DNA from: Anaeromyxobacter paludicola
Lineage (GTDB): Bacteria; Myxococcota; Myxococcia; Myxococcales; Anaeromyxobacteraceae
Assembly (NCBI RefSeq): GCF_023169965.1
Contig: NZ_AP025592.1
Location: 4,424,001-4,488,000, forward strand
Reading direction: 5' to 3'
Length of the DNA: 64,000 nucleotides
The notes under the pieces are model-generated. The model was not told the origin of the DNA, did not search any database, and saw only the letters and a list, made by a program, of their open reading frames with translations. The position numbers were made by a program, and so were the translations under genes. Position 1 is the first letter of the stretch, and the number at the start of each line of letters is the position of its first letter. Of the stretch, positions 53,318 through 62,881 are shown piece after piece.

Positions 53318-54214
53318 ATGCGCGACCTCGGCATGAGCGGCACCCAGACCCGTCCTGCTCCTCGCGCAGGGCGCCTGGCCTGGAAGGGGCTGGTCGCCGC
53401 GGTCGCGGCGTCGCTGGCCGGCACCGTCGGAGCGGCGGACACCACGCGCGTGCCGGTGCTCGTCGAGCTCTTCACCTCGGAAGGGTGCTCGTCCTGTCCG
53501 CCGGCAGACGCTGCCCTGAGCCGCCTGCTTCGCGACCAGCCGATCGCCGGTGTGCGGATCATCGCGCTCTCGGAGCACGTGGACTACTGGGACGGGCTCG
53601 GATGGCGCGATCCCTTCTCTTCCAGGGCCTTCACGCGGCGGCAGGAGGCTTACGCGCGCCGGCTCCCGTCGGGAGGCGTCTACACGCCGCAGCTGGTGAT
53701 CGGCGGTGCGGTCCACCTCGTCGGGAGCAAGGAAGAGGGCGCGCGAGCCGCCATCGAGACCGCCGCGCGCGAGCCGGGGGGCGAAGTGTCGGCGCGCGTC
53801 GTGCCGGGCGCCGGGACGGAGCTGGAGGTGGCGGCGCGCTGGCCGGCCGGAATCCAGGCCCAGGTGCTCGTCGCGCTCGTCCAGGATCGGGCGGTCAGTC
53901 TGGTGGAGCGCGGCGAGAACGCGGGGCGCAGGCTCGAGCACGTCGCCATCGCGCGCGCCGTCTCGGCGGTCGGTTCGGGAAGCGGGTCGTTCTCGGGTCG
54001 CGTCAAGCTCCCCGGAGCGCAGGGTGCCGATCGCGCGGTCATCTTCGTGCAGGAGGGGGACGGCGGGCGTATCCACGGTGTCGCTTCGGTCGAGCTTGGG
54101 GACAGGAAGCAGGGGCGACGGCATGGGTCCGGGGGCTCGCGTCGAGGTAACCTCCTCGCGGATGCGGCGAGAGGCAGACGAGGAGGGCCTCATGGAGGCC
54201 TACGTCGAGGGTGA
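53318..54214 (+). CDS. DUF1223 secreted thioredoxin-fold protein
   Basis: A 298-residue protein with an N-terminal signal/anchor (about residues 20-40, ending VGAAD) and the DUF1223 hallmark VLVELFTSEGCSSCPPADAAL with a CxxC pair, then LSEHVDYWDGLGWRDPFSS and GGVYTPQLVIGG. The fold is thioredoxin-like, so a periplasmic redox role is likely. The start could also be ATG 53333. Its low-complexity tail overlaps the ECF sigma gene by 92 bp if the latter starts at 54123. Confidence 0.83.
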   Translation: MRDLGMSGTQTRPAPRAGRLAWKGLVAAVAASLAGTVGAADTTRVPVLVELFTSEGCSSCPPADAALSRLLRDQPIAGVRIIALSEHVDYWDGLGWRDPFSSRAFTRRQEAYARRLPSGGVYTPQLVIGGAVHLVGSKEEGARAAIETAAREPGGEVSARVVPGAGTELEVAARWPAGIQAQVLVALVQDRAVSLVERGENAGRRLEHVAIARAVSAVGSGSGSFSGRVKLPGAQGADRAVIFVQEGDGGRIHGVASVELGDRKQGRRHGSGGSRRGNLLADAARGRRGGPHGGLRRG

Positions 54215-55481: not shown

Positions 55482-55949
55482 TCAGCCGGAGAGGACGAGC
55501 TCCGTGGTGATGCCGATGGCGGGTTTCAGGCTGCGGTAGAGCGGGCAGGAGTCGGCGAAGAACCCGTGCACGCGCCGGGCGGTCTCGTGATGCTCCGCCC
55601 CGGCGTGCAACTCCAGTCGCACGTGGATACGCCGGAGCACGAGCACCTTGCCCTCGAGCTCGACCTCGCCGGTCGCCACGCCGACCAGCTTTCCTTCCCC
55701 CGCCGGGATCTGGCGCGCCTCCAGCGCGCCTCCGAAGGTGCCCGTCAGTCAACCGGCCGTCGCAGCGACGACGTAGTCGATCGTCGTCGCGTGCGGATCG
55801 TAGGTCCCGGGCGCCCGCCCATAGTGCTCGGCGATGGCGCCGTGCACCCCGAACGCCACCGGTTCCTTCTCGCCGGGCAGGAATGCGCGCCGGAGCGGAC
55901 CCGCGACCCGCTCGATCCTGGCCTCCGACCTGTAGACCACGTCACCCAT
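55482..55949 (-). CDS. OsmC-family protein with in-frame TGA at the redox Cys (candidate selenoprotein)
   Basis: A 155-codon gene, ATG 55949 (GGGAGGAG site) to 55482, in a single frame except for TGA at 55749-55751 (codon 67). Before it: TTIDYVVAATAG; after it: LTGTFGGALEARQI. This is the helix where OsmC/Ohr proteins carry the peroxidatic cysteine. The second conserved Cys is present (FFADSCPLYRSL, C135). OsmC-like proteins with selenocysteine are a known bacterial selenoprotein family. A hairpin suited to a bacterial SECIS follows the TGA (55712-55730). The alternative is a TGC-to-TGA nonsense mutation. The gene is 17 bp downstream of msrA and is probably cotranscribed. Confidence 0.8.
55712..55730 (-). 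promoter_or_regulatory. Candidate bacterial SECIS hairpin
   Basis: In the mRNA, 18 nt after the UGA, GGCGCGC and GCGCGCC form a perfect 7-bp stem with loop UGGAG, which has G in the second loop position. CGGG (nt 5-8 after UGA) can pair with CCCG beyond the stem as a basal helix. The distance from UGA to loop (26-30 nt) falls in the range described for bacterial SECIS elements. GC-rich DNA makes chance hairpins common, so this is supporting, not decisive. Confidence 0.55.
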
Positions 55950-55966
55950 CTGCTCCTCCCTTGGAT

Positions 55967-56629
55967 TCACGACTTCGCTCGTGGCCGATGAGGCAGCGGG
56001 CATGACCGGGACCCGTGCTTCTCGTCCCACTGCTGGTGGTAGTCCTCGGCGAGCCAGAATGGGCCTGCCGGGGCGATCTCGGTCGTGATCCGGTCCATCA
56101 GCCGCGCCTGCTGCGCGTCGCGGGAGGCGAGCGCCGCGGCCTGCTGCTCGGGGCCGAAGGTGAAGATCGCCGAGCGGTACTGGTGCCCGCGGTCCGGTCC
56201 CTGACGGTCGCCGCTCGTCGGGTCGTGCGTCTCCCAGAAGGCCTCGAGCAGGTTGGCGTAGGTCACCTTGCGCGGGTCGAACTCGACCAGGACCGACTCG
56301 GCGTGGCCGGTCAGGTGGGCGCTCACCGCCTCGTAGCTCGGGTCCCGCTCCTTCCCTCCGGTGTAGCCGACCGCCGTGGCCACCACGCCAGGGACCCTGC
56401 GGAACCGCTCCTCGACGCCCCAGAAGCACCCCTGGGAGAAGATGGCGAGCTCGTTCCCCGCTGCCGCCGCCAGCGGCGTCCCGTGTCCGACGTGCCCCGG
56501 CCGCTTCCCGACGCTCGGATTGCCGATCATGTCGCCTCCCATGCCTTTGGCAGGGCCAGCCAACGCGGGAATCCAGAGCCGCGCCGCGCCGGCGAGCGCG
56601 AGAGCTCCCACCACGAGCGCGGCCTTCAC
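55967..56629 (-). CDS. msrA: Peptide-methionine (S)-S-oxide reductase, exported
   Basis: A 220-residue MsrA with an N-terminal signal/anchor and catalytic GCFWGVEE (Cys, not Sec), followed by [26 protein letters not shown], and [11 protein letters not shown] 56629 overlaps the msrB stop (GTGA). It repairs oxidised methionine in envelope proteins and requires a reductant; the DUF1223 thiol protein nearby is one possible partner. Confidence 0.92.
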
Positions 56630-57216
56630 GGGTGGACCCTCCCGCCCTGGGCGGTCGCCTCGAACAGCCGCGCATACTGCCCGTACCCCTCCTGCGCGAG
56701 CCGCTCCGCGGGGACGAACCGGAGGGCCGCGGAGTTGATGCAGAAGCGCAACCCGGTCGGCGGAGGCCCGTCATCGAAGACGTGGCCGAGGTGGGAGTCG
56801 GCGAGCCGGGAGCGGACCTCCGTTCGCGTCATGAGGAACTGGCGATCGCTCCGGGTGGTGAGCGCGTCAGGCTCGAGCGGGCGAGTGAAGCTCGGCCAGC
56901 CGGTGCCGGAGTCGAACTTGTCGAGGGAGCTGAAGAGCGGCTCGCCCGAGACCACGTCGACGTAGATCCCGGCGCGGTGCTCGTTCCAGTAGGCGTTCCG
57001 GAACGCCGGCTCCGTACCTTCCTGCCGCGTCACCCGGTACTGCTCGGGCGTGAGCCGCTCCCGGAGCTGGGCGTCGGAGGGCTTCACGTAGCTCCGCATG
57101 CTCGTGTGCTCCTGTTCGACGCCCCCCGGCCCGTTCCCGGCTGCGAGGCTGGCGGCGGGCCAGGCCAGCCAGACCACACCAAACCAGACGCCCAGCAGTC
57201 CCTTGCGCTTCCTCAT
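56626..57216 (-). CDS. msrB: Peptide-methionine (R)-S-oxide reductase, exported
   Basis: A 196-residue MsrB with a signal peptide (cleavage near SLAAG). It has the core [28 protein letters not shown], and the catalytic Cys in [11 protein letters not shown]. The structural zinc CxxC pairs of many MsrB are missing, giving the zinc-free form. It is first gene of the msrB-msrA-osmC operon. It handles the R-epimer of methionine sulfoxide in the envelope. Confidence 0.92.
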
Positions 57217-62530: not shown

Positions 62531-62532
62531 GA

Positions 62533-62881
<349 letters not shown>

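Follow-up and report, generated by a model that had tools for sequence, protein, structure and literature searches.

The osmC locus

The window, i.e. the whole stretch of 64,000 nt from Anaeromyxobacter paludicola analysed here, carries three adjacent genes on its minus strand in the order msrB-msrA-osmC. The msrB gene (56626–57216; PF01641, E 7.9e-48, and TIGR00357) has a signal-like N-terminus and overlaps by 4 nt with msrA (55967–56629; PF01625, E 3.5e-55, and TIGR00401), which lies directly upstream of osmC (55482–55949), with 17 nt between the msrA stop and the osmC start. The N-termini of both MsrB and MsrA were judged hydrophobic by eye. A likely ribosome-binding site, GGGAGGAG, was read from the sequence just 5′ of the osmC start (55953–55960, minus strand).

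Translated from its ATG at 55949 down to 55482 with TGA read through, osmC gives an OsmC protein of 155 amino acids. With the TGA read as selenocysteine (Sec, U), the product is MGDVVYRSEARIERVAGPLRRAFLPGEKEPVAFGVHGAIAEHYGRAPGTYDPHATTIDYVVAATAG-U-LTGTFGGALEARQIPAGEGKLVGVATGEVELEGKVLVLRRIHVRLELHAGAEHHETARRVHGFFADSCPLYRSLKPAIGITTELVLSG, followed by an ordinary TGA stop codon at 55484–55482. The sole internal TGA is codon 67 (55749–55751, minus strand); it is flanked by the residues VVAATAG and LTGTFGGAL and falls on the site of the peroxidatic Cys, as judged from relatives that carry TGA and from others (L151-L157) that carry Cys here. The product matched Pfam family PF02566 at an E value of 2.4e-10 and 41.2 bits, above the gathering cut-off of 27.5 bits, and the same family was matched by 114 of 114 relatives. 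The original prediction, which gave no strand, was correct as to the position of the gene, its single in-frame TGA with the flanking residues, C135, the hairpin and its spacing of 18 nt. Translation, domain match and the AlphaFold2 model described below strongly support osmC as the gene of an OsmC-type protein, presumably peroxide-fighting, in which the active-site Cys would be replaced by Sec.

Conservation of the UGA codon and Sec machinery

The five orthologues in the family of the window's genome (69–85% identity) each contain one internal TGA, and the codon is kept in all 16 full-length genes, including that of the window, found in 195 genomes of the phylum (58–86% identity). When 84,980 named species genomes (GTDB) were scanned and the best 80 loci taken, TGA was present at the codon-67 site in 80 of 80 (57 + 22 + L111). 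These loci belong to Myxococcota, Acidobacteriota, Gemmatimonadota, Chloroflexota, Poribacteria, Thermodesulfobacteriota, Nitrospirota, Nitrospinota, Tectomicrobia and Actinomycetota. All 33 matches in 396 Chloroflexota genomes had one TGA each, while 396 Actinomycetota genomes yielded 42 matches that contain TGA and 8 that lack a stop. Seven of these eight stop-free homologues (L151-L157; AGCLIGTFGG and similar) have Cys at exactly the codon-67 column, and one has lost it; the Cys forms are more distant than the Sec forms. Hence, the proposed equivalence of codon 67 to a Cys, with exchange of the codon among homologues, was borne out. Since the same codon, always UGA and never UAA or UAG, occurs in well over 100 independent genomes, a sequencing error at the TGA is ruled out.

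Decay of the downstream half, which had been named as a sign against Sec, was likewise not found: in comparison with the nearest orthologue, dN/dS was 0.13 before the UGA, 0.14 after it and 0.13 past the hairpin. Purifying selection, as estimated from these ratios, is equal on both sides of the UGA, with no sign of decay.

The genome of the window consists of one contig of 4.59 Mb and contains SelA (E 2.7e-154), SelB, SelD (E 5e-117) and a tRNA-Sec (75.1 bits; anticodon UCA by ARAGORN), i.e. the machinery that the original prediction proposed to look for. The selD gene (L039, G000:C1:4260864-4261793) has its own in-frame TGA in the motif GAG-U-ACK, so the genome holds at least one other selenoprotein. 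SelA was detected in 32 of the 36 genomes with named Sec-form loci. Among the Actinomycetota it was present in 33 of 36 Sec-form genomes versus one of five Cys-form genomes (Fisher p ~0.002, calculated by hand). As SelA is also common in same-phylum genomes that have no osmC gene (about 26 of 39), the contrast between Sec and Cys forms is the informative one. The Sec-form genomes in which SelA was missing (4/36 named, 3/36 Actinomycetota) are presumably incomplete bins.

The hairpin downstream of the UGA

The putative SECIS element is the hairpin GGCGCGC-UGGAG-GCGCGCC (55730–55712, minus strand), with a perfect 7-bp stem that starts 18 nt past the UGA. Its UGGAG loop (55723–55719) begins 25 nt from the UGA. 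Published limits for bacterial SECIS elements (bSECIS) are a loop of 3–9 nt with a G in the first two positions, an upper stem of 4–16 bp, 16–37 nt from UGA to loop and a minimum free energy of ≤ −7.5 kcal/mol (PMC13188914); with its UGGAG loop, 7 bp, 25 nt and −19 to −20 kcal/mol the osmC hairpin lies within all of them. For the single sequence, the folding z-score of −0.21 is unexceptional for GC-rich DNA, and all 7 pairs arise in 4.4% of synonymous recodings of the window osmC. Because the single-sequence folding energy is uninformative, comparative tests were used instead.

The hairpin or a register-shifted version of it is formed by 115 of 126 distinct homologues, versus 21 ± 4 (maximum 32 in 200 trials) after synonymous recoding of the same set; about 11 of the 126 form neither register cleanly. 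Across 82 distinct genes, the pair identity of fourfold third bases was 0.76–0.88 at codons 74, 75, 76 and 78 and 0.37 ± 0.07 outside them, and third codon positions are frozen solely at the hairpin site. Changes on both sides of the stem were counted ten times, compared with 1.3 ± 1.0 in shuffles (0/500 reached ten): at pair 27-35, nine sequences have A-U for G-C, and at pair 26-36 one has U-A for C-G. Moreover, some Actinomycetota and Chloroflexota have a stem that is displaced by one base and re-formed with its own complementary bases. Comparison with relatives, through which alone this becomes visible, shows the predicted osmC hairpin to be more than chance. Judged by these third-base and pairing patterns, it is an RNA signal.

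A diverged group of the Sec-OsmC subfamily (L187, L188, L159, L160; U-MMGTLA) has kept the UGA. In the two members of this group that were examined, L187 and L188, the common hairpin is not formed; their SECIS is presumably different.

The conserved UGA, the Cys homologues, the conserved hairpin and the Sec machinery jointly support the original prediction that the UGA is read as Sec, and from these comparative data we infer actual Sec incorporation at codon 67.

Fold, active site and proposed mechanism

An AlphaFold2 model of the osmC product, computed with 114 relatives, reached a pLDDT of 95.7. Its best structural matches in the PDB were OsmC and Ohr proteins (TM 0.6–0.75; 11–16% identity), while a single-sequence search of the PDB gave no match for the osmC product. 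In hhalign comparisons against single OsmC sequences the active sites were aligned at low probability, and the family-level Pfam and fold evidence was preferred for this reason. In the model, U67 lies within a long central helix (residues 56–77). Residues R20, Y43, T56, D58, U/C67, T71, G94 and C135 are invariant in the 114 aligned sequences.

In the Ohr of Xylella fastidiosa the active-site residues are Cys61 and Cys125, Arg19 and Glu51, with the peroxidatic Cys in the central helix, and Ohr enzymes require a conserved Arg such as Arg19 in XfOhr (PMC5962072). The predicted fold and the approximate spacing of the redox pair are common to the window OsmC and the Cys-based Ohr/OsmC peroxidases, and the invariant Arg ahead of the pair would be a further shared feature. 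Codon 135 (55545–55547, minus strand) encodes the presumed resolving Cys, which is invariant in the 114 sequences and spaced much as in Ohr, C135 lying 68 residues after Sec67 and Cys125 64 residues after Cys61. Codon 20 (55890–55892, minus strand), invariant in the same set, encodes the presumed catalytic Arg, its equivalence to the Ohr Arg being deduced from the comparison. The window OsmC differs from Ohr in having Sec for the peroxidatic Cys, in its identity of 11–16% and in the catalytic Glu, which has no clear counterpart; the invariant Asp58 is a candidate.

From the fold and the conserved residues we infer a peroxidase function with an Ohr-like cycle. SelB and tRNA-Sec would bind the hairpin just 3′ of the UGA and decode codon 67 as Sec, which would stand in for the peroxidatic Cys of a thiol-type peroxidase with OsmC/Ohr fold. 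Peroxide would oxidise the Sec67 selenolate, C135, the likely resolving residue, would then form an Se-S bond with Sec67, and a thiol reductant would restore the Sec67/C135 pair, with Arg20 probably assisting catalysis. The higher reactivity that had been proposed for the Sec form may apply.

Gene neighbourhood

The link of osmC with MsrB and MsrA, originally proposed as an operon with exported proteins, is real in the genome of the window, but MsrA or MsrB was found beside osmC in 0 of 123 other loci (tblastn, flanks of 1.5–4 kb). A conserved osmC-msrA-msrB operon was therefore rejected, the arrangement being limited to the window among these loci. The neighbours of osmC vary among phyla and are repeatedly redox genes.

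In seven Acidobacteriota loci (L047, L050, L091, L094, L102, L117, L120) a Prx/thioredoxin-like gene is located just upstream of osmC. It contains an in-frame TGA in FFRSADW-U-PFC (UxxC) and is apparently a second selenoprotein; its NCBIfam matches stay below the curated cut-offs. One neighbour in Actinomycetota is a DsbA-like ORF, recognised by sequence only. Within the window, a secreted thioredoxin-like protein (ELFTSEGCSSCPPAD) is encoded at 53318–54214 on the plus strand, and a relative of it occurs near Sec-OsmC in four Acidobacteriota loci. A tmRNA gene (137.6 bits) is situated at 62531–62881 on the minus strand.

Relation to known OsmC-like selenoproteins

OsmC-like selenoproteins with the motif UxxT were first reported from the Sargasso Sea in 2005 (PMC1088965). 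In the GOS data of 2008 this type comprised 5 Sec versus 161 Cys homologues (PMC2398784), and OsmC-like selenoproteins are listed in 2026 (PMC13188914). Hence, the statement of the original prediction that Sec-containing OsmC-like proteins exist in bacteria is true, but the window gene represents another subfamily than the UxxT proteins of these papers. Both types share PF02566, Sec at the site of the peroxidatic Cys and a bacterial SECIS. They differ in the motif, which is U-[LM]-x-G-T with Gly at +3 in the window subfamily (U-L-T-G-T in the window OsmC itself) and has Thr at +3 in the UxxT type, and in composition, the window subfamily being nearly all Sec and the UxxT type mostly Cys.

The NCBIfam model NF041052 (OsmC_like_Se) represents the UxxT type and has a cut-off of 95 bits. 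OsmC genes with U-[LV]-L-T (L197, L199) occur among the genomes examined, and L197 was recognised by the model with 172.9 bits. The window OsmC gave no match at an E value of 0.01, and its 114 relatives gave weak matches only (best E 2.6e-8). A BLAST comparison of the window subfamily with the UxxT type yielded no similarity (E 0.33). By motif, family model and BLAST, the window OsmC is set apart as a subfamily distinct from UxxT. We found no NCBI family model covering this subfamily and no paper describing U-[LM]-x-G-T OsmC proteins, in a literature search of incomplete coverage that extended to texts other than supplementary tables.

At L203 (G210:C47) and L204 (G229:C214) the Sec-OsmC gene is adjoined by a second OsmC gene with an in-frame TGA (GLGA-U-TSMT). 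It resembles the window gene in its OsmC domain and in the TGA at the Cys site. Its sequence G-A-U-T-S-M-T is similar to COG1765/YhfA, and it belongs to another OsmC subfamily. It scored 62.6 bits against NF041052, under the cut-off. The L204 copy also carries a TAG and has perhaps decayed.

Weighing of alternative explanations

We consider it highly probable that osmC encodes a Sec67 protein of the OsmC/Ohr fold, presumably a peroxidase with C135 as resolving residue and help from Arg20, in a mostly-Sec subfamily that extends over at least ten phyla and is distinct from UxxT. A real stop at codon 67, leaving a pseudogene or a truncated product of 66 residues, would fit the use of UGA as a normal stop in this genome, where osmC itself ends with TGA, and the loss of most of osmC from the sibling genome G012. 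The reading is refuted by conservation, and its probability is negligible: the 88 codons past the UGA are conserved over about ten phyla, their dN/dS matching that of the upstream half, no relative has exchanged the UGA for another stop codon, and non-Sec relatives have Cys in this column. Readthrough by itself would also explain the conserved downstream half if a suppressor tRNA inserted Trp, Cys or another residue. This is very improbable given the complete Sec machinery, the conserved UGA-linked hairpin at the bSECIS position, the association of Sec forms with SelA and homologues that have Cys, not Trp.

Identity of the window OsmC with the OsmC-like selenoprotein of earlier reports appears improbable as well. 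The UxxT type has the same Pfam domain, and our comparison was made via NF041052 and L197, not the published sequences; against identity stand the Gly rather than Thr at +3, the behaviour of NF041052, which takes L197 and not the window protein, and the BLAST result. A Sec protein of OsmC fold whose main job is not peroxide reduction, e.g. a seleno-thiol transferase, a sulfur-relay protein or a carrier, is unlikely, yet it carries more weight. It would agree with the low identity to characterised Ohr/OsmC proteins and the lack of a single-sequence match in the PDB, with the unclear Ohr Glu, for which Asp58 is the candidate, and with neighbours that differ between phyla. The fold, the spacing of the Sec/Cys pair and the invariant Arg, however, agree with the Ohr pattern, and the neighbours are redox genes (MsrA/MsrB in the window, the UxxC Prx-like gene in Acidobacteriota, the DsbA-like ORF in Actinomycetota), which argues for the Sec67 peroxidase.

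A mostly-Sec subfamily, gene loss and likely transfer

The larger finding is an OsmC subfamily that is widespread, consists mostly of Sec forms by gene counts and lies outside the family models now in use. Selenoprotein families are for the most part rare Sec versions of common Cys proteins, a pattern on which discovery methods depend (PMC12013277). The OsmC subfamily shows the opposite ratio, with about 90 Sec genes versus 7 Cys genes among about 1,000 genomes sampled from three phyla (195, 396 and 396). We lean towards regarding it as an undescribed, Sec-first subfamily, in which Sec is near-universal and probably long-standing in at least ten phyla, Cys arose mainly where Sec decoding was lost, and the members were overlooked because gene finders end the protein at the UGA and most methods seek homologues with Cys in place of the UGA codon. 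Owing to the reversed ratio, the subfamily is well suited to the question of why bacteria that are mostly aerobic or soil-dwelling retain Sec in a presumed peroxidase, and its natural Sec/Cys pairs could be used as tests of Sec retention. In many Acidobacteriota, Chloroflexota, Actinomycetota and Myxococcota, the osmC gene is probably truncated in, or missing from, existing genome annotations.

The gene can be lost, as seen from a remnant in the same-genus draft genome G012 (L025, 1593–1712), where osmC is reduced to its last 40 codons; msrA and msrB are absent from the contig stretch carrying this remnant. The osmC copy of G053 is cut by a contig end. With no relative among plasmid records (tblastn) or IMG/VR viral contigs, osmC was rejected as a known plasmid or phage gene. 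The phylogeny of 114 proteins, too weakly supported for rooting Sec against Cys or for giving the direction of change, shows groups by phylum, but Thermodesulfobacteriota, Chloroflexota, Gemmatimonadota and others are intermixed, so that some transfer is likely.
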